In this document: piece after piece, positions 4,641-57,719 of the stretch | Layout of the letters: every line of letters starts with the position of its first letter | Position numbering within the stretch: the first letter of the stretch is position 1 | Origin: Proteinivorax tanatarense | GTDB lineage: Bacteria; Bacillota; Proteinivoracia; Proteinivoracales; Proteinivoracaceae | Direction of reading: 5' to 3' | Assembly: GCF_040267685.1 (NCBI RefSeq) | Contig: NZ_CP158367.1 | Coordinates: 2,356,001-2,420,000 of the forward strand | Length of the DNA: 64,000 nt | The notes under the pieces: generated by a model | The model's input: only the letters and a program-made list of their open reading frames with translations | The model's database searches: none | What the model was told of the DNA's origin: nothing | Made by a program: the position numbers and the translations under genes

Positions 4641-5594
4641 TTATATATAGGACACAAATATTTCAAGATTTTCTCCATGTATGGAAAATTTTTCGACCAT
4701 ACAAGGCAATATAAAGTGGGAAGATTTTGCTATACTATACTCTTTCTCATCTATAACCAATTTGCCATCACCTTTTAAAACGCTACATATCATAAATGGC
4801 TGGCTTTTATCAAAACTTCCTGCATCCTCAATATTCCACTTTTGTACAGTAAAAAATGAGTTGTCAATAAACTTGGTTTTTAAAACCCCATCTCTTTTCT
4901 CCACAGTTGGCTTATTTTTTGGTTCGTCGTGAGGAGTGGCTATTACATCTATAGCTTGTTTTAAATGGAGTTCTCTAGTATTTCCTAACTCATCTTTTCG
5001 GTTGTAGTCATATAATCTATAAGTTGTGTCAGAACTTTGTTGCACCTCTAACACTACTGTGTTTTTACATAACCCATGGATTGTTCCACTAGGAATATAG
5101 ATAAAATCTCCTGGTCGAATTTTCTTCTTTGTCAACAAAGATTCAAACTTTTTGTTATAAACTAGTTTTTTTAGTTCATCATGGGTCTTTGCTTTATGTC
5201 CTAAAACTATTTCTGCATCTTCATCACAATCCACTATGTACCAACATTCAGTCTTACCGAGGCCGTCCACTTCATTGGCTTTAGCATATCGGTCATCAGG
5301 ATGTACTTGCACTGACAAATCTTTATTTGCATCAAGAATCTTAATCAGCAACGGAAACTTTTTTTGTCTAGGGTATCCAAAAACTTGTGGGTAATCTTCC
5401 CAAACTGTTTTTAATGATTTTCCCTTAAGCTTAGAATTTAAAATTATACTTTCTCCACTGGGATGGGCAGATACTGCCCAACACTCTCCTGTTTTATTAC
5501 TGGGGATATCATAATTAAAATAGGTTTTTAATTTTTTACCTCCCCAGAGCCTTTCTTTAAACACAGGCCCCAAAAACAAAGGTTCTTTTATCAT
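4641..5594 (-). CDS. manA: Mannose-6-phosphate isomerase, type I
   Basis: 317 residues. It interconverts mannose-6-phosphate and fructose-6-phosphate in the cytoplasm. Zinc-site motifs of the cupin-type isomerase are visible: VQVHPDD near residue 96, GKTECWYIV shortly after, and IPSGTIHGL near residue 150. Length matches the short Firmicute form. It lies 2 bases from the ROK kinase stop-start junction, so the two are translationally linked. With the kinase it forms the route by which mannose released by the GH38/GH125 enzymes enters glycolysis. Confidence 0.93.
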
Positions 5595-5596
5595 GC

Positions 5597-6454
5597 CTAT
5601 TCTCCTTTTTCTTGTAGTGCTAGTGCCAAAGCTCCTCTTATACCTTGTTCATCATTTAATTTAGGTTTGACTATAAATTCAGGAGGAATTTTTACATATC
5701 CATTGACCATTTTTTCCAATTTCCCCTTAATTTTAGATATAACATGACTTTGTTTCATAACGCCTCCGCCTAGAATGATTTTATGAGGAGATAATATTAA
5801 GGTATAATTCATAACAGCCTGAGCTAAGTAATAGCTCTCTAATTCCCAAACATCATCTCTGTGGCTTAGTTCACTTGCTTTTACCCCATACCTTTTTTCT
5901 ATAGCTGGACCAGATGCTAACCCTTCCAAACAGTCGCTGTGATAAGGGCAAACACCTTGAAAATCATCTTCCTTTGAACGCTTAACCCTTATATGACCCA
6001 TCTCAGGGTGATTTACTCCATTTAACGTCTGACCATCTTTAACAAAGCCAGCTCCAATACCTGTGCCAACGGTTACGTATAAACAGCTATTGTTTTCTTT
6101 CGCTGCTCCCCACCTATACTCACCTAAAGCAGCCACATTTACATCGGTATCTAAATAAACTGGTATATCATAATAGTTTTTAAATTTCTTATAAATATTA
6201 AAATTTCTCCACTTTCTCTTTGGTGTGCTCAATATTTCTCCATAATTGCCCTGACTTTTATCTATTTGCACAGGACCAAAGCAGCCTATTCCAAGTCCTT
6301 TTAATGGATAATTTTTAAAAAAATTAATCACGTTGTTTATGGTTTCTTCTGGTGATTGTGTAGAAATCTTTGTTTTATCAATAATTTCACCATCTTTATT
6401 ACCTACGGCACAAACAAATTTTGTGCCTCCTGCTTCGATTGCTCCGTAATACAC
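5597..6454 (-). CDS. ROK-family fructokinase/mannokinase
   Basis: 285 residues with the ROK ATP-binding start (AIEAGGTKFVCAVG) and a zinc motif of the fructokinase type: HPEMGHIRV followed by CPYHSDCLEG, about residues 145-178. This is the YdhR/GmuE/ScrK arrangement rather than the glucokinase one. Enzymes of this branch phosphorylate fructose and often mannose. Immediate coupling to manA and the mannoside context favour mannose as the physiological substrate (inference). Start ATG has an AGGAGGGG site upstream. Confidence 0.85.
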   Translation of the reverse strand: MYYGAIEAGGTKFVCAVGNKDGEIIDKTKISTQSPEETINNVINFFKNYPLKGLGIGCFGPVQIDKSQGNYGEILSTPKRKWRNFNIYKKFKNYYDIPVYLDTDVNVAALGEYRWGAAKENNSCLYVTVGTGIGAGFVKDGQTLNGVNHPEMGHIRVKRSKEDDFQGVCPYHSDCLEGLASGPAIEKRYGVKASELSHRDDVWELESYYLAQAVMNYTLILSPHKIILGGGVMKQSHVISKIKGKLEKMVNGYVKIPPEFIVKPKLNDEQGIRGALALALQEKGE

Positions 6455-6473
6455 TTAAGCCCCTCCTAATACT

Positions 6474-6502
6474 GAACCCTGTTGCTACATACAACAGGGT
6501 TC
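6474..6502 (-). terminator. Intercistronic hairpin between solute-binding protein and ROK genes
   Basis: An 11-bp perfect stem (GAACCCTGTTG / CAACAGGGTTC) with a short loop lies 8 bases after the binding-protein stop codon. No clear U-run follows on the minus strand, so partial termination or protection of the upstream mRNA are both possible. Confidence 0.55.
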
Positions 6503-6510
6503 ATCATCAG

Positions 6511-7962
6511 TTATTGTTGATGTGCACGCCATTCATCATATTGTTCTTGAATCTCATCAAGTACTTTTTGCATACCTGCTTCATATAATCTTTCATTAAA
6601 TACATCTAAATACACATCTGGATCAACTGCTCCTTTTAATAGAGCGGGTGCAAACTCACTTGTTACGTTAGAAATTGCTGCAATTTCTGTTCTTACTGCG
6701 CTTGGGTCAAAATAAAACCCTAAAGCTGGTGAAGGAATTGAGTTATCGTTAAATTCTTCAAAAGCTTCCCATTTATCCTCGGGCTCATCGTCATGCAAAG
6801 GCAAAATCAACTGGTTGCCTATTGCAAAACTCGGCATGTTGTAATCCTCTACTCTTGCCGGTAAATCGGTTATTGTTCCATCATCATTTAGCTCATAATG
6901 AACTCCCTCTATACCTTTATCAACTAAGGTTCTTAAATAAGGATCTGTGTTTAACAGATTTAAAAACATCATAGCTCTTTCTGGATTTCTTGAAGTAGCT
7001 GAAATAGCTTGCATAGAGCCCGTCACCGAGTTATTAAATACATATGGTTCTTGTAAAGGCACATAATCTATTTCATATCCTGATGAACGGGACCATAATA
7101 GTTCTGCATATGGTTGATATAGCTCTTTTCTAACAAACCAATTTTGCACATCCATAGGCCATGAATCTGTGCTTGTAGCAGCATCTGACCTTATATATCC
7201 CTTGTTATAGTAGTCATGCATAGTACTCAAAATATCATGGGTAATTTCTTCCTCATACTTATTTATAACTTCAGTTGTATCTCCTTCTAGCCTAAAGGCA
7301 AAAGGCATTTCTTCTTGAAGTAGCGAATCAAATGGCAAAAATGCATCAAAAGTAGCTATGGGACTTACTCCAGATTCCTCTTCTTTTATTACTTGAAAAT
7401 ATGGTTCCATATCTTTTATACAAGTTACATCTGACAAATCAAGATCATGCTTATCTGCTAATTCCTTGTTATAAGCTAATACAGCCTGCTGCCCAACTTC
7501 TTTATTTGTTGGCACCGCGTATAAACCACCGTCTATTTGTGCTCCTTCAAGGAAGGCAGGATCTATAGCCTCTTGCATTTCTTGTCCATATTCATCCATA
7601 AGATCTGTAAGTTCTAAAAAAGCGCCTCGTCTTGCATTTAAGGAATAGTTGTTTGCCCATGAACTTGTAAAGGCAATATCATATTCTTCTCCAGACGTAA
7701 CAATAACTTGCATCCTATCATCATACTCGCCCCAATCTAACATGCGCAAATCTATGGTAGCGTTTATTTTTTCAAGTGTGTATTCGTTAATTTCTTCTAG
7801 TACTTTGTCAAGGTCAGATTGTGGTGTTCCAATTAAGTACCAAGTTAATGTAACATGGTCTAACTCATGGTCAGGGTTGCCTTTAACTTCTTTTTCTCCT
7901 CCACAGCCAGCAGTAAAGCTGAGCACCATAATAATAACTAAAAACAAAGATAACTTTTTCAT
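6511..7962 (-). CDS. Lpl-type extracellular solute-binding lipoprotein
   Basis: 483 residues. A basic N-terminus and hydrophobic stretch end in FTAGC, a lipobox, so the mature protein is a membrane-anchored binding protein. The overall layout (EKINATIDLRMLDWGEYDDRMQVIVTSGEEYDIAF, quoted here only as separate blocks around residues 65-100) is that of LplA/DUF3502 carbohydrate-binding components. It is followed in transcription order by the kinase and manA and preceded by two permeases. The ligand is presumably an oligomannose or N-glycan fragment because of the surrounding hydrolases (inference). Confidence 0.88.
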   Translation of the reverse strand: MKKLSLFLVIIMVLSFTAGCGGEKEVKGNPDHELDHVTLTWYLIGTPQSDLDKVLEEINEYTLEKINATIDLRMLDWGEYDDRMQVIVTSGEEYDIAFTSSWANNYSLNARRGAFLELTDLMDEYGQEMQEAIDPAFLEGAQIDGGLYAVPTNKEVGQQAVLAYNKELADKHDLDLSDVTCIKDMEPYFQVIKEEESGVSPIATFDAFLPFDSLLQEEMPFAFRLEGDTTEVINKYEEEITHDILSTMHDYYNKGYIRSDAATSTDSWPMDVQNWFVRKELYQPYAELLWSRSSGYEIDYVPLQEPYVFNNSVTGSMQAISATSRNPERAMMFLNLLNTDPYLRTLVDKGIEGVHYELNDDGTITDLPARVEDYNMPSFAIGNQLILPLHDDEPEDKWEAFEEFNDNSIPSPALGFYFDPSAVRTEIAAISNVTSEFAPALLKGAVDPDVYLDVFNERLYEAGMQKVLDEIQEQYDEWRAHQQ

Positions 7963-8014
7963 TTTCTTCCCCCTTATTTCTTTTGTTATTTTAAAAAAGG
8001 TTTTCCTTTTTTAA

Positions 8015-8986
8015 TTACTCTTTTACCCCACCAATAGTCAATCCTCTAACAAAATATTTTTGAAAGAAAGGATAAGTTAAAGCTATCGGCAAGGTTGCTA
8101 TAACCACTATTGCCATTTGAGCAGAATCCTGCGGTATAGACGCCATTAAGGATTCACTTTGTGCACCTATATGAGCATTTTGTGCTATGAAATCTAAGTT
8201 ATTTTCAATCCTCATCAACAACGATTGTAGCGGAATCAAATTAGGATCGTCTATAAACAGCAATGCATTAAACCAGTCATTCCAATAAGCTAATGTACTA
8301 AAGAGAGCTATGGTTGCTATTCCTGGAATAGCCAGTGGCAAAACTATAGTAAGAAAAATTCTAAATTCTCCAGCACCATCTATTCTAGCTGATTCTATAA
8401 TAGCTTCTGGTACAGAACGCTGAAAGAAAGTTCGCATTATAATTATATAAAAAGCGTTTACTGCTAAGGGAAGTATCAGCGCCCATATACTATTTTTTAA
8501 GCCTAAAAATTGGGTCATTACAATATAAAATGGCACCATACCCCCACTAAACAACATTGTAAAAAACACTAGAAAAGTAAACTGCCGTCGGTAAATAAAC
8601 TGTTTTCTTGATATTGCATATGAATACATCGAGATCATGGCAACACTCAAAAGCGTACCTACTACAGTTATAAATATAGTTATTCCGTATGCTCTAAGCA
8701 GCTGAGACCTCATCATCCACAAGTATCTATATGCATCTAAACTCCACTCTTGGGGTATCACTCTATAACCATGCATTGCCAAGGACTGCTCACTGGATAA
8801 AGAAATAATAATCACATATACAAAAGGAAAAATGCAAAGAAATGCAAAAAGTGCCAACAAAATATTCATAACAATATTAGTCTTTTTAGAAAAAGAATGA
8901 GGATCATATTTCTTTTTTTTGCCTAAATTTACAACTTCTTCACTGCTTGCTTTTGTTTGCTGTGAAATTTTTTCAAAACTTTTCAT
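8015..8986 (-). CDS. Carbohydrate ABC transporter permease, LplC/YtcP type
   Basis: Inner-membrane permease of a CUT1 importer with about six transmembrane helices and the EAA loop (ESARIDGAGEFRIFLTIVLP) that contacts the ATPase. The longer frame reaches 9028, but the ATG at 8986 has TAGGAGG nine bases upstream, so I chose that start. The upstream permease gene ends at 9006, leaving a 19-base gap that contains the ribosome binding site. It pairs with the next gene to form the channel. Confidence 0.9.
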   Translation of the reverse strand: MKSFEKISQQTKASSEEVVNLGKKKKYDPHSFSKKTNIVMNILLALFAFLCIFPFVYVIIISLSSEQSLAMHGYRVIPQEWSLDAYRYLWMMRSQLLRAYGITIFITVVGTLLSVAMISMYSYAISRKQFIYRRQFTFLVFFTMLFSGGMVPFYIVMTQFLGLKNSIWALILPLAVNAFYIIIMRTFFQRSVPEAIIESARIDGAGEFRIFLTIVLPLAIPGIATIALFSTLAYWNDWFNALLFIDDPNLIPLQSLLMRIENNLDFIAQNAHIGAQSESLMASIPQDSAQMAIVVIATLPIALTYPFFQKYFVRGLTIGGVKE

Positions 8987-10055: not shown

Positions 10056-10090
10056 AAAACAGGCTAACCCCTTTAAGGTTAGCCTGTTTT
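10056..10090 (-). terminator. Terminator after the response-regulator gene
   Basis: The stem AAAACAGGCTAACC / GGTTAGCCTGTTTT overlaps the stop codon of the response-regulator gene and is followed by T-rich sequence. It separates the two-component genes from the importer operon. Confidence 0.75.
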
Positions 10091-11608
10091 AGTATATTTT
10101 TTTCTCCACTGTGAAGGCGTCATCTTTTCCTGCTTTTTAAACTGTTTGTAAAAGTAAGCAGGGTCTGCATAACCAACTTTATTTCCTATAGAGCCAGCTT
10201 TTTCATATGAGTTCAAAAGATATTCTTTAGCTTTCTTTATTCGGACGCTGTTCAAGTATTTCGTAAAAGAATAGTTGACTTCTTTTTGAAATAGTTGCCC
10301 CAAGTAAATTGGGCTTATATGGTAAAGAGCTCCTAGTGTTTTTAAGGACATATCTTCTGCATAGTTTTGGTGAATATGCTTTAATATAGTTTCTATAATA
10401 GGGCTGTGTTTGCTTTTATCTTCAATTTTTGAGGTCTCCAAAAGCTCAATACAGTGAGTTAGGGTAATTTTAGCCTCTTCAACCGATTGAAGGTTTAGTA
10501 TAGCATGGACTTTTTTTACATACTGTTCATGTTCTAACTGCAGAAAGAAGTTATTCTTGATAAAAAATAATAGTTCCAATAATATGCTTTTTACTATAAC
10601 CTTTAAATTTTGGGAATTATAGTAATCAAATGTTTTTCCCAGTTCTTTTTCTACTAAGTCATATTCCCCCTCTGTAATCTTTTCAATTATTTCTTGGCTT
10701 AGATGATTACTTAAGTAGGTGTGTTCTTCTTTAACATTTTTCGATTCTTTAAAGTAAATGTAATCAATATTTTTATGCTCTTGTTTAGGCAGAAGCATTT
10801 TCAATTCACTAGCCATTTCAATTTCCTTAAAAGCATCGTGTATTTTCTCTGGTTCTTTTACTTTCTTACTATAAACTAAAATGTATTCACCTTTTTCAGT
10901 ATCCTTTTTTAACCTTTTTTTTAAGTCAGCAATTTCTTCTTTTAATTTATCTTCATCGATGCCACACCATAAGAAAAACATGTGCCCCAAAGGGGATACC
11001 ACAGCTATAGTTTTTTCTCTCTTTTCCATTTCTTTCTGGAGTCTGTTAATGAGTATTTCACTACTTTGCTGGCACTCAATCTTTAACAGTCCAATATTTA
11101 TAGGAAAAGTAATGTCCATTCCTGTGTAAAATGATAGCCTTTGCCTTAAATCATCAAAGCTCATTTGTCCATTGATCCATCGCCACAGCCCCTGATCCCG
11201 CATAACTAAACTAGATTTTTGCTGTATCAATGTATTATTTATCTTTTCTTTAACACCCTTTAAAGATAATAAAAGCTCCTCTTGGTCCACTGGCTTTAGC
11301 AAATAATTTTCTATTCCAAGCTCTAAACCTTTTTTAACATAATCAAATTCTTGGAACCCAGATAGTACGATTGATTTAACCTCATTATTTTCTGCTTTTA
11401 AGGCTTTAATTAATTCTAACCCTCCCATGTTAGGCATTTTTACATCTGTTATTACAAGATCAGCAGGATTAGCTTTATATTTTTCTATAGCTTCTTTTCC
11501 GTGAGAAGCTATAGAAACGACTTTAAAACCAAAAGATTCCCAGTTTATAATATTTTTAAGTCCTTCCAGTATTAACGGTTCATCATCAACAAGCATCACT
11601 TTAACCAT
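10079..11608 (-). CDS. YesN-type response regulator with AraC DNA-binding domain
   Basis: 509 residues. An N-terminal receiver domain (1-120) has acidic DDE at 8-10, phospho-acceptor Asp55 in LVITDVKMPN and a conserved Lys near 105. A long helical middle follows, and a C-terminal double helix-turn-helix of the AraC family (about 405-509; motifs LGALYHISPIYLGQLF and YADPAYFYKQFKK). It overlaps the sensor kinase gene by 8 bases. Such pairs activate neighbouring Lpl-type sugar importer operons in response to extracellular glycans, so it likely controls this locus. Confidence 0.92.
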   Translation of the reverse strand: MVKVMLVDDEPLILEGLKNIINWESFGFKVVSIASHGKEAIEKYKANPADLVITDVKMPNMGGLELIKALKAENNEVKSIVLSGFQEFDYVKKGLELGIENYLLKPVDQEELLLSLKGVKEKINNTLIQQKSSLVMRDQGLWRWINGQMSFDDLRQRLSFYTGMDITFPINIGLLKIECQQSSEILINRLQKEMEKREKTIAVVSPLGHMFFLWCGIDEDKLKEEIADLKKRLKKDTEKGEYILVYSKKVKEPEKIHDAFKEIEMASELKMLLPKQEHKNIDYIYFKESKNVKEEHTYLSNHLSQEIIEKITEGEYDLVEKELGKTFDYYNSQNLKVIVKSILLELLFFIKNNFFLQLEHEQYVKKVHAILNLQSVEEAKITLTHCIELLETSKIEDKSKHSPIIETILKHIHQNYAEDMSLKTLGALYHISPIYLGQLFQKEVNYSFTKYLNSVRIKKAKEYLLNSYEKAGSIGNKVGYADPAYFYKQFKKQEKMTPSQWRKKYTKTG

Positions 11609-13331
11609 AGCTTTGCACCTCTTTTATAATTGGTAACTTTACTTTAATTAAAGTTCCACAGCCATATTCACTTTCTATTTTTACACCGTAGTTTTCACCA
11701 TGTTTTAGCACTATCCTTTGATTGACATTACTAAGTCCTATAGACTCAGAATCGCTATCTAAGTTGTTTATTTTCTTTTCTATTTCTTTTACCTTTCTGC
11801 TGTCTATACCGATTCCATTATCTTCAATTATTATCGATAACTGCTGTCTCTCTTCTTCTATTTTAATGAAAAGTTTATTATCATCTCTATCCCTTTTAAA
11901 GCCATGCATCAAAAAATTCTCTATTAATGGTTGTAATATAAAAGGGATTACATAGCAGTTTTCTACCTTCTTCCCTACTTCAAATCTACAAATAAGTTGA
12001 TTAGGAAAGCGATTTTTAAATAATTCGATATATTCAAAGGCATGATTTATTTCTTCCCGTATAGTTACCATTTCCGCCTTATTTAAGGAATGTCTAAATA
12101 TTTTGGACAACTGTACAATCATTTTAGCAGAAGTTTGTCCTCCCTCAGCCATTGATTTCATTCGTATAGCTTCTAAAGTGTTGTATAAAAAATGGGGGTT
12201 TATTTGTGCTTGTAAGTGAGCTAATTCTGCCTCTTTTTGCTTTAGCTTTGAAAAGTACATCTTATTTAGATAGTCATCTAAGGTATCTAGTGTTTCATTA
12301 AACGTATGAGCAATTATAGAGAGATCATCACAAACCTTAACATTGGAGATTCTAGCTTTCATGTCTCCATTTTGAACTTCTTTCATTTTGCCAATAATCT
12401 CATCTACCCTTTTAGAATAACTTCTCAAAGAAAAATAAGGAATAGCTATAGCTATAAACGCTAACCCTGAAGTCATTAAAACCACTCTAAACCCATATCC
12501 ACGCAAGTTTTTTACTTCGTTTCTAGGCAGTATGGAGGTTACCATAACCTCACTCATTGGCTCAACTGAAGAGTTTACAAAGTAAGTCCCTCCTGATTTC
12601 AGTTCTTTATTACCAGAACCAAACTCAGGACTTATTTCTTTATATTTTTCTCCATAAGTATAATAGTTTTTCCCTTCTTTATTACTTAAGGTTACTGACC
12701 CTTTTAAAGGTTCATCTACCCTAGATAACACTCTATCAAACCCTTGATAACTATAATATGCAGTCATGGTTCCAATTCTTTCCAAAGAAACAGGGTCGTT
12801 AATCGATACCTTTACTGTATAAAATCTCTCTTTGGCATCAACATCATCATTCATTTCACTTATATACCAACTACTATGGTCAAATAAATATTGGTATTGC
12901 GTGTTTAGCACTTCATTTTGGATTTGCAATGCCACAATATCAGGATTTCTGGAATAATAATTTTTTATAAATAGGTCAAAATTATATGGAACAAAAGAAT
13001 CACTTTCAGCAAACTTATTTAATCTATATTCTAAGTAATCCTGATAATCATGCTGTAACGCAAAAACTAAATCCTCAATTAAGTCTTCTTCGAAATATAA
13101 CTGTCTTACCCCTTGTTTGGTAAACTCATGCTTATATGCAAGCTCAGACTTAACTTCTTTTATAATGTTTTCTCTTTGGTACAGCTCTCTTTGAATAATC
13201 AGTTCAGAATAATAACTCCAAACAAATAAAAAAAGCAATGCCATAGTTAAAAGAATTATGGTGGAGTAGGTAAAAAATACCCTATAAAACATCCTAACTT
13301 TTATTTTTTTTGCTAACTTAAAAGCTTGCAT
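11601..13331 (-). CDS. YesM-type sensor histidine kinase
   Basis: A membrane sensor with one helix near residues 24-42, an extracellular region of about 240 residues, a second helix near 285-305, a HAMP linker, and a His_kinase domain. The phospho-accepting His lies in AQINPHFLYNTLEAI (near 385), and the ATP-binding lobe carries EDNGIGI. The frame can extend to a GTG at 13343, but the ATG at 13331 has the better-spaced GGGTG site. The gene overlaps its response regulator by 8 bases. The extracellular ligand is unknown; oligomannosides are inferred from context. Confidence 0.9.
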   Translation of the reverse strand: MQAFKLAKKIKVRMFYRVFFTYSTIILLTMALLFLFVWSYYSELIIQRELYQRENIIKEVKSELAYKHEFTKQGVRQLYFEEDLIEDLVFALQHDYQDYLEYRLNKFAESDSFVPYNFDLFIKNYYSRNPDIVALQIQNEVLNTQYQYLFDHSSWYISEMNDDVDAKERFYTVKVSINDPVSLERIGTMTAYYSYQGFDRVLSRVDEPLKGSVTLSNKEGKNYYTYGEKYKEISPEFGSGNKELKSGGTYFVNSSVEPMSEVMVTSILPRNEVKNLRGYGFRVVLMTSGLAFIAIAIPYFSLRSYSKRVDEIIGKMKEVQNGDMKARISNVKVCDDLSIIAHTFNETLDTLDDYLNKMYFSKLKQKEAELAHLQAQINPHFLYNTLEAIRMKSMAEGGQTSAKMIVQLSKIFRHSLNKAEMVTIREEINHAFEYIELFKNRFPNQLICRFEVGKKVENCYVIPFILQPLIENFLMHGFKRDRDDNKLFIKIEEERQQLSIIIEDNGIGIDSRKVKEIEKKINNLDSDSESIGLSNVNQRIVLKHGENYGVKIESEYGCGTLIKVKLPIIKEVQSYG

Positions 13332-52662: not shown

Positions 52663-54303
52663 CTATATATCATTTCTCTTATGCTTATTTAAATCTATAA
52701 CCTCATCTGCTATGTTTATAAAATCGTGGTCATGGCTTATTATAATTGTTATCCTGCTTAACTTTGTTTCTACTATCAAATCTTTCAATTTATCAACACT
52801 TTCAACATCTAGCGCAGAGCTAGGCTCATCTAAGACTAACAATTCTGGACTTTTAAGAAAATTTCTAGCCAAATTAATTTTTAACTTTTCTCCCCCAGAA
52901 ATATTATTTGAAGCTTCATCTATAATTGTTTCTAATCCATTATCAAATTTTGCAGGATCCAGTTTCAGTTTATTTAATATTAAGCTTAAATTGTCAAAAT
53001 TATACTGCTCTAGACCATATGTAAAATTTTCTATCAATTTACTATTGATTGTTTTAGGTTCTTGCATGCAAACTCCTACAAAGTTTTTCCTAATATAATA
53101 CATATCTAAATTCTTAATTTCATTAGTGTCATAGTGTATTTTACCATCATAGTAATCGTTGTATATACCTAATAACAATTTAATTAAAGTGCTTTTACCA
53201 GTCCCATTGCTACCAATTACACAATAAACCTTACCTTTTTTAAATTTTTGATTAAAGTTACTTATTATTTTCTCAGATTTATTATATGAAAATGCTACAT
53301 TTTCTAATTTTATATTGCTTATGTTAAAAATTTTTTTATTACCGTTTATTTCTTTAGATTCGTCTAGTATTTGCTTTAATCTATCGTAAGAAACTAAGGC
53401 TTTTTGGTATGATTCGCCAAAGTTTAAGAAATAACTTATGCTTCCCATAATCATTGAAAAATAGCTTTTTATAATAGTAAATTCTCCTACACTCATGTTG
53501 CCACGTATTACTTCCCTTCCCCCAAAAAAGAAAATTAGTCCATTTGCTACAAGCATTGTAAATGAATTACTATTGGTGAAAAGTAAAGACAATTTAGTAT
53601 GTGATAGTAAAGATTTAAACATAGATTTAAAACTATTACTAATAACTTCGTGAGCTTCTGTAAAAGTTGCATTTATCTTAACTATATTTACATTTTGCAG
53701 ATGTTGGTTCATTTTAGAAAAAAAAATATTTTGTTTTTCTTTTAAATCATAATTTCGCCTATACAAAGGTTTTCGAAAAATATAGTACAGAAACAGGTAC
53801 AGAGGAAAAACTGGAATTAATATTAAAGTCATTTTAACATTTATAGTAAAAGATATATAAAAAAGAATGATTATGGTTAAAGCATTACTAACTATATTAA
53901 GAAGGTTGTCTAATAAAAAATTAACCACAACACTACTATCATTGTTAATACGATGATTTAAATAGCCACTATTTTTGTTTTCAAAGTACCTAATGGGCAT
54001 TTTTAACAAATGATTTAAAACATCAAAATTCAAGTCAATCATCGCTTTCGTTTGGATCTTTACATTTAAATACCTTTGAGCAAAAGATGAAACCATATTA
54101 AATATGCCAATAGTTATTATTATAAGAGTAATCTTAGTTACGATCTGAAAATCATTAGCTGTTATAAGTATATCTATATAATTCCCAGTTAAATAAGGGA
54201 AAAATATAGCCAGAGCTCTCGAAACGAAATTAAGAAGAATAAAAATTAATAAATAAATTTTATATTTCAAAACATATGTCATGGTAAATTTGATAATTTT
54301 CAT
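52663..54303 (-). CDS. ABC exporter, fused permease/ATPase, in the RiPP cluster
   Basis: 546 residues. Six membrane helices (about 1-300), then an ATPase with Walker A GSNGTGKST, signature ISGGEKLKI and Walker B LLVLDEPSSALD. The protein begins directly with the membrane domain, so the C39 leader-peptidase of bacteriocin exporters is absent. AAAAGGGGGGG precedes the ATG. It lies 417 bases downstream of two Cys-rich precursor genes and is the likely exporter, or alternatively an immunity pump, for the matured peptides. Confidence 0.85.
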   Translation of the reverse strand: MKIIKFTMTYVLKYKIYLLIFILLNFVSRALAIFFPYLTGNYIDILITANDFQIVTKITLIIITIGIFNMVSSFAQRYLNVKIQTKAMIDLNFDVLNHLLKMPIRYFENKNSGYLNHRINNDSSVVVNFLLDNLLNIVSNALTIIILFYISFTINVKMTLILIPVFPLYLFLYYIFRKPLYRRNYDLKEKQNIFFSKMNQHLQNVNIVKINATFTEAHEVISNSFKSMFKSLLSHTKLSLLFTNSNSFTMLVANGLIFFFGGREVIRGNMSVGEFTIIKSYFSMIMGSISYFLNFGESYQKALVSYDRLKQILDESKEINGNKKIFNISNIKLENVAFSYNKSEKIISNFNQKFKKGKVYCVIGSNGTGKSTLIKLLLGIYNDYYDGKIHYDTNEIKNLDMYYIRKNFVGVCMQEPKTINSKLIENFTYGLEQYNFDNLSLILNKLKLDPAKFDNGLETIIDEASNNISGGEKLKINLARNFLKSPELLVLDEPSSALDVESVDKLKDLIVETKLSRITIIISHDHDFINIADEVIDLNKHKRNDI

Positions 54304-54720
54304 ATAACCCCCCCTTTTCCTCTACCAATCGGTTTCATCTGTAAAATTAACTTGCTTATTTTGCTTAAATAATATTTTCGAGCACTTTTAGAAAAAGAAT
54401 TCAATTGGCTACCTTACCACCAAAATTTTATAACTTTTCTACTATTGTTCTCCAAAATCAGGTCTATAAAAACTTTATATAAATACCAAAAGCAAATCCA
54501 AAAGGATTTACTTTTGGCATATTTTTTCTTAATGATTACCTAATTCAATAATAATACACTTGCTTTAGTAACAAATTAATATTTAACCTTACAATTAAAA
54601 TAATAATTTGCAAATCCTTTCTTTCACTTATCTTCTAAAATTTAAGTTTATACTAGATTAAAATAATATTTTCTATCTCCTATAATGGCAAAAGCAAAAT
54701 CTGTGCTACTAAATTAACAT
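54304..54720. other. Intergenic region between exporter and precursor genes
   Basis: 417 bases of very AT-rich sequence with no credible coding frame on either strand. It contains one hairpin (54486-54530). It probably holds a separate promoter for the exporter, but I cannot point to convincing hexamers. Confidence 0.5.
54486..54530. terminator. Hairpin/terminator after the RiPP precursor genes
   Basis: The stem CCAAAAGCAAATCC / GGATTTACTTTTGG (one mismatch) has a 4-base loop. On the plus strand it is followed by six Ts; on the minus strand the tail is only moderately T-rich, so it may terminate the precursor transcript only partly. Confidence 0.6.
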
Positions 54721-54912
54721 TTATTCTGCCAATGGCATTACCTGCGCTGGATAACAAACTTGCCCCCCACAGAATTCGCACTGAGTGCAGCGGTCGTTAC
54801 AAAGTTGACCACCACATCTCGATGAGTCCGAAAAACATCCGCATTCAAACCCATCGTTACAGGTAAAAGTACATAGTTCTTCCATACTATTTCCTTCTAT
54901 CAAATAAGTCAT
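54721..54912 (-). CDS. Cys-rich RiPP precursor peptide 2
   Basis: 63 residues: nine-residue start MTYLIEGNS, a short acidic stretch, then ten cysteines at 14, 18, 24, 26, 33, 38, 42, 45, 48 and 53, and the tail YPAQVMPLAE. CGGQLC and CGGQVC are internal repeats. It is a close paralogue of the peptide 37 bases upstream; leader, Cys spacing and tail are conserved while the loops vary. GGGAGGTGA precedes the ATG. Position behind a radical SAM/SPASM maturase indicates a ribosomally made, post-translationally modified peptide. A metal-binding mini-protein is the alternative. Confidence 0.8.
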   Translation of the reverse strand: MTYLIEGNSMEELCTFTCNDGFECGCFSDSSRCGGQLCNDRCTQCEFCGGQVCYPAQVMPLAE

Positions 54913-54949: not shown

Positions 54950-55150
54950 TTACTCTTCTACTAATGGCATTACCTGTGCTGGGTAGCAAACTTGACCACC
55001 GCAAAAACCTTCGCAATGATTGCATCGCGTATTGCAAAGTTGACCACCACATTTTGATGCATCAGAAAAACAGCCACACTCAAAATCTGAGCATTCAAAT
55101 TGACTACAAAGTACATCTACTAAGCTATTTCCCTCAATTAAATATGTCAT
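54950..55150 (-). CDS. Cys-rich RiPP precursor peptide 1
   Basis: 66 residues with the same MTYLIEGNS start, ten cysteines (15, 20, 25, 27, 34, 39, 43, 46, 50, 55) and YPAQVMPLVEE tail as its neighbour. The Shine-Dalgarno sequence AAAGGAGGTGA, an essentially perfect match to 16S rRNA, overlaps the last codons and stop of the maturase gene, and the ATG is 3 bases after that stop. This gives strong, coupled translation suited to a peptide needed in excess over its maturase. Where the leader ends cannot be seen; there is no GG cleavage site before the first Cys. Confidence 0.82.
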   Translation of the reverse strand: MTYLIEGNSLVDVLCSQFECSDFECGCFSDASKCGGQLCNTRCNHCEGFCGGQVCYPAQVMPLVEE

Positions 55151-55153
55151 AGT

Positions 55154-56479
55154 TCACCTCCTTTCCACTTTTTCATTATTTAATTCTCTATATTTGTTTA
55201 AAGCTATATTCTTAATATAACCTTCTAAAACATACTTGTAAGAAGTGCATCTATCTACTATATTATCTACTCTTCTTCTAGGGCACCCTCCCATACATAA
55301 CGGTAAAACTTCACAGTCCTTACAGTCCTCATCAATAGTAGGGTCATAAAGTATATATTGGAAAAATTTTTCCAAGTTAATCATTTTGTTCTCAGAAATA
55401 TTACTAATTTTATACTCACTCCTACCCACATCAGACCAACATTTATAAATGTCACCTTTAGGATCAATAACCATTGAATTTAGGTTATCTGCCGTACAAA
55501 CATTAGTTTTAATATATGGGTACTTATAATCTATATTGGGCACGAAATTTACTGCTTGTAGTCTCTCATGAAACTCATACTCAACTTTTGAAAAATCACA
55601 TACTTCTAAACAATTGTTAACGGAATAACAATCATTAGTTGGTTCAATATATCCTGGATATGTTGCTACTGTTTTTTCTAAATTATATTCCTTTATCACC
55701 TCTAAAATTTCTTCTAAACTTTTTATATTTTCTTTATCTATATTAACTCTTAGATTAGTAGAAGGTAGATACTTTTTATTTTCTGACAAGTTTGATAATA
55801 TACGTTCAAATGTTGGGCCTCCATTTTTTAAAGGACGTCTAGAGTTATGTGTTTCACCAGTTCCATCTATAGTAACTTGCATAGCTTTAATATTTAGTTT
55901 TTTTAATTTAAGTAAAGTATCCTTTGTTAAATTATATCCGTTAGTCACTATCATGGCGGAAAACTTGATTTTTTCCCGCTTAACAATTTCCAGTACTTTA
56001 TTAGTTATATTTTCAATAGCTTCCATGGCTAATAATGGTTCTCCTCCATACCATGATATGGATAATTGTTCAATAAATTTTGATTGCTTTTCTATAAATT
56101 TTATAATATTATTTTGTACCTCTTTAGACATATAGCCTTCATTTTTTCCCTTTTCATAACAGTAAGTACAAGCAAAGTTACAATCAAGGGTAGGAGCAAT
56201 AGTCAAGCCTAGTCCTTTAGAAGAATATCTACTAGCAAACATTTTAAATTTAAGTATCTCAAGTTCATTTATATCTGGTTCTATCAAAAACTCCCCTTTT
56301 TGCAGTTCCTTTAATAACTTTGCATCTTCAATTTGCACACCATTTTCAACATATTTTTTTAGTTCTGCGTAATCCTTTTTATTAATTAAAGCCAATGAGT
56401 TTGTTCTAGAATTGTAAGCTATCAATTTACTTGGGTCTTTTTGAAACTCATAGAAAAAATTATAACTTGATTCTTTCAT
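55154..56479 (-). CDS. Radical SAM/SPASM peptide maturase
   Basis: About 441 residues from the ATG at 56479 (GGGAGTG upstream; frame open to 56494). An N-terminal region of about 95 residues resembles the peptide-recognition part of RiPP maturases. The radical SAM cluster motif CNFACTYC has Cys at 105, 109 and 112 (counted from 56494), and SWYGGEPLL is the SAM-binding GGE motif. A C-terminal SPASM domain holds additional Cys: VCTAD, YKCWSDVG, CKDCEVLPLCMGGCPRRR and RCTSYK. Such enzymes form thioether or related links at Cys. It may belong to the clostridial Cys-rich-peptide maturase (CcpM-like) group; this is from memory and unverified. Confidence 0.88.
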   Translation of the reverse strand: MKESSYNFFYEFQKDPSKLIAYNSRTNSLALINKKDYAELKKYVENGVQIEDAKLLKELQKGEFLIEPDINELEILKFKMFASRYSSKGLGLTIAPTLDCNFACTYCYEKGKNEGYMSKEVQNNIIKFIEKQSKFIEQLSISWYGGEPLLAMEAIENITNKVLEIVKREKIKFSAMIVTNGYNLTKDTLLKLKKLNIKAMQVTIDGTGETHNSRRPLKNGGPTFERILSNLSENKKYLPSTNLRVNIDKENIKSLEEILEVIKEYNLEKTVATYPGYIEPTNDCYSVNNCLEVCDFSKVEYEFHERLQAVNFVPNIDYKYPYIKTNVCTADNLNSMVIDPKGDIYKCWSDVGRSEYKISNISENKMINLEKFFQYILYDPTIDEDCKDCEVLPLCMGGCPRRRVDNIVDRCTSYKYVLEGYIKNIALNKYRELNNEKVERR

Positions 56480-56523
56480 ATTTTTCACTCCCATAACTAT
56501 TATTTATTGTAAAAGAATTAATA

Positions 56524-56661
56524 CTATAAATTACTCGTATAGCTAAACCATTCATAGTCTTCATCTTTGTCGGCAATCTCATCATTATGACTTAAGCAAC
56601 AATAAAATTGACAAACAAGTAAAAACGATACTAATGCAAATATAATAAATTTTTTTTTCAC
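56524..56661 (-). CDS. 45-residue secreted-type micro-peptide, candidate pheromone precursor
   Basis: A GTG at 56661, four bases after GGGGGG, opens a 45-residue frame. It reads as a basic start (MKKK), a hydrophobic segment (FIIFALVSFLLVCQFYCC, residues 5-22) and a hydrophilic acidic tail ending WFSYTSNL. The layout is that of PapR/Phr-like pro-pheromones, whose mature peptide is cut from the C-terminus. It is the first gene upstream of the radical SAM gene on the same strand and is divergent from an HTH-TPR regulator. It was too short for routine ORF calling. An alternative is a small membrane or immunity peptide. Confidence 0.65.
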   Translation of the reverse strand: MKKKFIIFALVSFLLVCQFYCCLSHNDEIADKDEDYEWFSYTSNL

Positions 56662-56720
56662 TTTACCCCCCCTTTTTTTTTAAAATAATATTCTTAATAA
56701 ATATATAATATATTATTTAA

Positions 56721-56750
56721 AATATAGAATACGATTTTAATCGGGTTGAA
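56721..56750 (-). promoter_or_regulatory. Candidate promoter and operator of the RiPP operon
   Basis: On the minus strand TTCAAC - 18 bases - TATATT is a plausible promoter 60 bases before the micro-peptide start. The inverted repeat CGATT-TT-AATCG (56732-56743) lies in its spacer, the place expected for a regulator of the divergent gene to bind. The surrounding DNA is AT-rich, so chance matches are possible. Confidence 0.4.
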
Positions 56751-56783
56751 AAAAATATATTTTATGTTATGGAGGAATTTCAT

Positions 56784-57719
56784 GTGAATTACCACTTAAA
56801 ACTTTTTGGTGAAAAAGTAAAGTCAATCAGAAAAGAACTTAGAATTTCCCAAAGAGCCATATCTGAACAAACAGGAGTTAACATTGATACTATTCGTAAG
56901 ATAGAAAAAGGTATGGTTATACCTCGGCTTGATACGTTAGAAATTTTATCAACTGTATTAAAGCAAGATATAAGCAAATTATTTCTGGATTATCGGCTAG
57001 ATAATCAGGCTGCATTTAAAGAAGTTAAAGCTAAACTAGAATATAAGTTGAATAATAATAAGTATGAAGACCTATATTTAGAACGGGAACAACTTAAAAG
57101 GATAAAATTTTCTACAAAATCCGATTACTACCATCTTTTGATAACACAACTATTTTTTTTTGTTGATGCTATAATTTTATATAAAGTAGAAAATAAACCT
57201 GAAAAAGCTTATAAAAAGTTAATTAATTCATTAAAGGTAACTAACCAAAACTTTACTTTGGCAGATTATCAAATTTTTATCTACTCCTCTATGGAATTAA
57301 GAATTTTAATGAGTATTGGCTTCATTTTAAATAGTTTAAATGAGTCAAATAAGTACTTAGAAATTTTAGAGTTTTGCATGGAAAGGGTAGAAGTAGAAAG
57401 TTCGTTACATCCAAAATTGTGCCATAACCTATCCACAGCCTATAAAAGAAATAAGCAATATGAAAAAGCTCTTAGGTATTCAAATATAGGTATCGAATGT
57501 TGCAAAAAAAGTACTAATGTTACAGGTCTTCATATCCTTTATTACGGTAAAGGCGTTGTTGAATATTATTTAAATGATCCTAAATATATAAAATCAATAA
57601 AAACTGCATTATTATTATGTGACATCCTTGAACAAGAAAAGTTTAAAAATAAAATATTAAAAAACTGTAAAGATATACTTAAGTGCAAATATGAATTTGA
57701 AAACTTTTCTATTAAATGA
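56784..57719 (+). CDS. XRE-type HTH regulator with TPR-like C-terminal domain
   Basis: About 311 residues from a GTG at 56784 that follows TGGAGGA by 7 bases; an ATG at 56769 overlaps the ribosome binding site. A helix-turn-helix (IRKELRISQRAISEQTGVN and IRKIEKGMVIP) occupies about 10-65 and is followed by an all-helical region with TPR-like repeats, for example LSTAYKRNKQYEKALRYSNIG near residue 220. Size and layout match the RRNPP regulators (PlcR, PrgX, Rgg), which bind short imported peptides. It is divergent from the micro-peptide/maturase operon and is its probable regulator. Confidence 0.85.
   Translation: MNYHLKLFGEKVKSIRKELRISQRAISEQTGVNIDTIRKIEKGMVIPRLDTLEILSTVLKQDISKLFLDYRLDNQAAFKEVKAKLEYKLNNNKYEDLYLEREQLKRIKFSTKSDYYHLLITQLFFFVDAIILYKVENKPEKAYKKLINSLKVTNQNFTLADYQIFIYSSMELRILMSIGFILNSLNESNKYLEILEFCMERVEVESSLHPKLCHNLSTAYKRNKQYEKALRYSNIGIECCKKSTNVTGLHILYYGKGVVEYYLNDPKYIKSIKTALLLCDILEQEKFKNKILKNCKDILKCKYEFENFSIK

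Follow-up and report, generated by a model that had tools for sequence, protein, structure and literature searches.

A 45-residue candidate pheromone propeptide beside a PlcR-like regulator at a radical SAM peptide cluster of Proteinivorax tanatarense

In the window, the stretch of 64,000 nt from the genome of Proteinivorax tanatarense analysed here, a small frame between a divergent regulator gene and a radical SAM maturase gene raises the question of whether it is a gene at all and, if so, whether its product is a self-made signal that governs the neighbouring cluster for a modified peptide. The frame (56524..56661, minus strand, read from 56661 to 56524) starts with GTG a few bases after a GGGGGGG ribosome-binding site and is translated as MKKKFIIFALVSFLLVCQFYCCLSHNDEIADKDEDYEWFSYTSNL, a product of 45 aa with a basic N-terminus, about 19 hydrophobic residues and an acidic tail ending in WFSYTSNL. 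Its stop lies 29 nt before the start of the co-directional maturase gene (56494), so the frame appears to head the maturase operon. The radical SAM/SPASM peptide maturase (55154..56494, minus strand), with homologs in loci L036, L074 and L086, has TIGR04334, the Clo7bot maturase, as its best NCBIfam match at 337 bits, under the cut-off of 600, and appears related to the Clo7bot maturases without being a member. Beyond it, on the same strand, come two putative Cys-rich RiPP precursor genes, copy 2 (54950..55150), with the leader M-x-YLIEG and related precursors beside the L086 and L074 maturases, and copy 1 (54721..54912), as well as an ABC exporter with TM and ATPase parts (52663..54303), which has homologs in the L036, L011 and L086 clusters. 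A weak terminator-like hairpin, a consensus match only, separates the precursor genes from the transporter gene (54498..54517).

The small frame and its regulator

Pfam, NCBIfam and PHROGs give the 45-aa product no family at a meaningful score, as would be expected if an open frame had arisen by chance in AT-rich intergenic sequence. However, a profile HMM trained on 16 other regulator-adjacent peptides, with the window peptide left out, and searched against 1232 ORFs of the window and the own-genome neighbourhoods ranked this peptide first among the window ORFs (E 2.5e-7; next ORF E 0.18), and also recovered two other held-out peptides, that of L007 (in L014, E 3.5e-4) and that of L002 (in L009, E 4e-3). 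With this match, the strong ribosome-binding site, homologs that keep a D-x-[IY]-E-W block and an operator conserved at a fixed distance, the probability of a chance ORF becomes close to negligible, and on the held-out HMM result we rejected it. At the level of sequence the frame is thus confirmed as a real gene, and its description in the initial annotation (GTG start, basic beginning, hydrophobic stretch, WFSYTSNL tail, regulator and maturase on its flanks) holds. The dN/dS values of one ortholog pair, 0.47 for the peptide and 0.22 for the regulator, fit coding, but the peptide is short.

The divergent regulator (56784..57719, plus strand) was listed with an ATG start at 56769; its homologs begin with M-x-Y-x-L, so the true start is probably the GTG at 56784, and a candidate ribosome-binding site, GGAGG, lies near 56771. 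An XRE-type HTH was detected at the N-terminus (PF01381, 35.9 bits, cut-off 23), and the AF2 model (pLDDT 89.6) displays this HTH followed by helices 80-302, which form five TPR pairs and a cap. Among solved structures the model is matched best by PlcR in complex with PapR and DNA (E 1.4e-8 in Foldseek), aligned over nearly the full length (Z 19.7-22.6; 271-278 residues at Z 22) with 20% identity, whereas unrelated TPR rows score lower, at Z of about 17-18; ComR, Rgg2, Rap and NprR also match, further down among general TPR proteins. The XRE-type HTH, the predicted C-terminal five-TPR fold and the adjacent short, putatively secreted propeptide are the features of five-TPR RRNPP(A) systems. Within this group, the 20% identity in the structural alignment speaks of no close relationship to PlcR, and on this evidence the regulator is no PlcR ortholog. 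The propeptide, with 45 aa, a Sec-like N-terminus and an acidic tail, differs from the short hydrophobic SHPs of Rgg systems, which have no classical signal sequence. Of the kinships named earlier, that to PlcR-PapR is favoured by the best fold match and the five TPRs, and that to the clostridial Qsr/QssR pairs falls away: PlcR and TprA are grouped in a clan of five-TPR receptors that are mostly linked to biosynthetic clusters, and QssR is grouped with the nine-TPR receptors (PMC12700828), whereas the window regulator has 311-316 aa and five TPR pairs.

Paralogous pairs, relatives and the predicted signal

Besides one remnant, the same genome carries six further intact regulator paralogs with 30-53% identity, and alongside every intact paralog (6 of 6) a small, putatively secreted peptide is encoded divergently, such as NDDDDYEWNSIENEII (L003), KKDPVIEWHQYNGTNSI (L005) and EDEEPEYEWNTIGNQLL (L006); the tail of the L002 peptide has diverged, and the L007 peptide, with GEEDVPR, is of a second type. 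The surroundings of the pairs vary from the rSAM RiPP cluster of the window to a TOMM cluster in L011 (SagD 242.7 bits, cut-off 219; SagB 144, cut-off 78), a second cluster of rSAM/SPASM type that includes SDR and ABC genes in L010, a bacteriocin-type operon in L012 (7TM immunity family TIGR01654, 197.6, cut-off 189), ABC-2 genes beside a small secreted protein in L013, a broken SPASM-like fragment in L009 and no evident antimicrobial gene in L014. Judging from these sequences, the element shared across the loci is the regulator/peptide pair, not the chemistry of the product.

Two further observations concern these loci. In L012, a near-identical three-gene block of ABC type (325, 431 and 224 aa; 5088-8035 and 10078-13025) flanks the regulator/propeptide pair. 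A resemblance to Lactococcin 972 of the small secreted proteins in L012, L013 and L087 was an idea by eye, and it is not claimed because no family match was obtained.

The distribution of the pairs bears on another reading, which takes the 45-aa product for a small membrane protein of the RiPP cluster (an immunity protein, a transporter accessory or a leader) and not for a signal. Its shortness, hydrophobic N-terminus and co-direction with the maturase would suit such a role, but the family adjoins the same regulator family at unrelated clusters (TOMM and bacteriocin-type operons) and includes tandem 9-mer repeats under purifying selection, so we consider a membrane protein very improbable. 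Very probably the gene encodes an RRNPP-type pheromone propeptide paired with the adjacent regulator; the initial proposal of a pro-pheromone next to an RRNPP-type, here PlcR-like, regulator gains strong support from the fold, the paralogs, the conservation, the tandem repeats and the conserved operator.

A contig scan with the single regulator as query gave no match, and a scan with the regulator alignment gave 25 loci. Loci with both partners come from within the family and class, and from Tissierella, [Clostridium] ultunense, Thermoanaerobacter and Proteiniclasticum. The conservation expected in relatives that keep the cluster is displayed by L036, from another genus of the same family, where the window order of regulator, peptide (..EKESDIYEWHMYDEFI), maturase, a small candidate precursor containing Cys, and ABC exporter is retained, with 49% identity to the window in the maturase and 39% in the exporter. 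An insertion element with two transposase-like ORFs (L036 5519-7098) splits the maturase of this window-like cluster. Thermoanaerobacter thermocopriae (L086) and a MAG (L074) harbor a window-type maturase in partly broken clusters, with precursors that share the M-x-YLI(E/Q)G leader and a GQVC-x-P core; the L086 cluster is decaying and its peptide is frameshifted, and two of the peptide genes of the congeneric sister genome are pseudogenes. No recognisable peptide was found near L016, L027, L030, L067, L068, L075, L076, L079 and L089, some of which lie at contig ends. The L016 regulator is the second closest to that of the window (51% identity) and, with no recognisable propeptide nearby, may listen to the signal of another pair.

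Several precursors of the family carry their tails in tandem, with at least six spacer-free copies of GEDDLIRLH in L069, four of GEEDMIWLH in L071, six of GEEDIPRIF in L021 and two copies of the tail in L025. The synonymous to nonsynonymous codon differences between copies amount to 45:0 in L069, 19:0 in L071 and 53:5 for the longer repeat unit of L021. The copies thus differ only, or nearly only, synonymously; selection therefore acts on the encoded short peptide, and a signal length of about nine residues follows from the repeats with no need of an experiment. The initial annotation had looked for the signal among the C-terminal residues; the repeat units align instead with the block directly after the conserved [IL]A-type cleavage site of many single-copy precursors. 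In the window propeptide, where the site was assigned by eye, cleavage probably falls near the junction of HNDEIA and DKDEDYEWFSYTSNL, and the signal is probably the block that follows, approximately DKDEDYEWF(SY), rather than the extreme C-terminus, so it would probably not be covered by synthetic 5- to 8-mers of the C-terminus. L021 (1025-1399) and L022 encode a second precursor type of tandem GEEDIPRIFGIP units, in association with a branch of the regulators at about 30% identity; this is probably a sister pheromone family.

The putative operator and the recognition helix

Of the 16 propeptide upstream regions, 15 carry a common 20-bp dyad at a distance of 57-77 nt from the start codon. An unsupervised palindromic motif search with the window left out scored 281, where shuffled sequences reached at most 153.5, and the matrix it produced had its best site in the 64 kb at 56728-56747 (19.5; next 14.4), which a hand-aligned matrix also picks. 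This putative operator, AATACGATTTTAATCGGGTT (56728..56747, between the divergent genes), is not perfectly palindromic, its arms agreeing at 7 of 11 positions. Its centre lies about 27 nt upstream of TATTAT (56705..56710, minus strand), the probable -10 hexamer of the propeptide/maturase promoter as placed from the letters, and about 40 nt upstream of the inferred transcription start. In the window the matrix gave no second operator near the transporter or the precursors, and a promoter scan of the AT-rich DNA was uninformative (43 found against 34 expected).

A genome-wide pattern match allowing up to two mismatches placed the window-type dyad in only two other places, upstream of the L004 peptide and in a relic in L092. 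In the latter (1209-1520; G000:C1 about 295550-295863), a truncated secreted ORF begins 70 nt downstream of the dyad and enters short tandem repeats, and the site looks like the relic promoter of a pheromone or effector. L092 (245-1220) also holds a 74-bp tandem array of a dispersed repeat with CGCAGGCAATGAATTAC, which is scattered near L006/L013 and L007/L014 and absent from the window.

The half-site tracks two recognition-helix residues in all 16 loci with a readable helix, the half-site classes and some cluster labels having been set post hoc from the first set and related loci being not independent. Helices of the type DT[IL]RK, which in the window reads DTIRK, go with (C/A)GATT, DTLRR with GAAT, [EKV]T-x-[RK]R with AC[AT]T and ETxRK with CAAT. 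In the diverged branch, outside the motif set, the half-sites are as predicted in L007 and L082 (D..R, CAGAA) and in L020 and L022 (D..K, GATT), and they agree only in part in L021 and L019; the dyads lie 56-68 nt upstream of the peptide in all of these.

The position of the dyad also bears on the sign of regulation. It lies between divergent genes and directly adjoins the -35 region expected for the propeptide promoter, as would suit the same pheromone/receptor pair working through an Rgg3-like repressor that the peptide releases from the dyad. On the other hand, the closest structural match is PlcR, an activator, a centre near -40 is a usual activator position, and this position together with the lack of a clear -35 hexamer in the window would fit activation. 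We therefore infer activation and regard the repressor as unlikely.

The proposed switch and known systems

We consider it highly likely that the locus is an autoinducing pheromone switch, in which a peptide from the exported 45-aa precursor acts with the adjacent regulator. The precursor would be exported via Sec, cut near DEIA/DKD and trimmed to a short acidic-aromatic peptide, approximately DKDEDYEWF(SY), which would build up outside the cell and be re-imported by an oligopeptide permease; nine SBP_bac_5 (Opp-type binding) proteins are encoded in the genome, none linked to the regulator/peptide system. Inside the cell, the peptide would dock in the five-TPR domain of the PlcR-like regulator, which would occupy the dyad at 56728-56747 and turn on the propeptide, the radical SAM maturase and the Cys-rich precursors jointly, with autoinducing, density-dependent control of the modified peptide as the outcome.

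More broadly, we give an even chance to the idea that this clostridial five-TPR RRNPP branch, hitherto undescribed, is a plug-in switch. In a single genome, every one of several paralogous sets of pheromone, receptor and operator would then govern an antimicrobial-peptide cluster of another chemistry (rSAM RiPP, TOMM, bacteriocin-type), the operator being set mainly by two helix residues (D/E before the conserved T and K/R after it). Since an operator type is common to the window and L004, and another to L005 and L006, those pairs may cross-talk. If this is true, a short peptide of predictable sequence could induce silent peptide-antibiotic clusters of these anaerobes, and the family would yield, from sequence alone, matched signal/receptor/operator sets for studying how quorum-sensing specificity diverges.

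Among known systems, PlcR-PapR of the Bacillus cereus group shares with the pair proposed here the HTH and five-TPR receptor, the secreted propeptide of about 50 residues and the short acidic-aromatic signal. Unlike in that system, the window receptor is only 20% identical, the predicted signal core is D-x-[IY]-E-W rather than that of PapR, the operator dyad is another one, the propeptide gene is divergent from the receptor gene and heads the target operon, and the putative targets of the family are bacteriocin-type clusters. In streptococci, Rgg/SHP pairs adjoin and govern radical SAM RiPP clusters (PMC8092268, PMC13361665), so that the initial view of such control as uncommon was overstated; SHPs are shorter and exported by PptAB, and the Rgg receptor is of another clade, with another maturase and other precursors. 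TprA/PhrA of Streptococcus pneumoniae, as cited in PMC10075063 from Hoover 2015, resembles the window by its description in having a five-TPR receptor beside an antimicrobial peptide cluster, and differs in signal and product class. The Qsr/QssR pairs (PMC7376267, PMC7206700) are also clostridial multi-paralog RRNPP pairs, but QssR belongs with the nine-TPR receptors (PMC12700828) and controls solvent formation and sporulation. Multi-copy propeptides are already known (PMC9765709, PMC11343458), and RRNPP_detector (PMC10075063) lists 196 candidate BGCs that adjoin RRNPP pairs, one of them in Tissierellaceae. The present family may be among the numbered RRNPP_detector clusters; what appears to be new is the family of receptor, peptide and operator, the array of pairs on different clusters within one genome, and the readable operator code.
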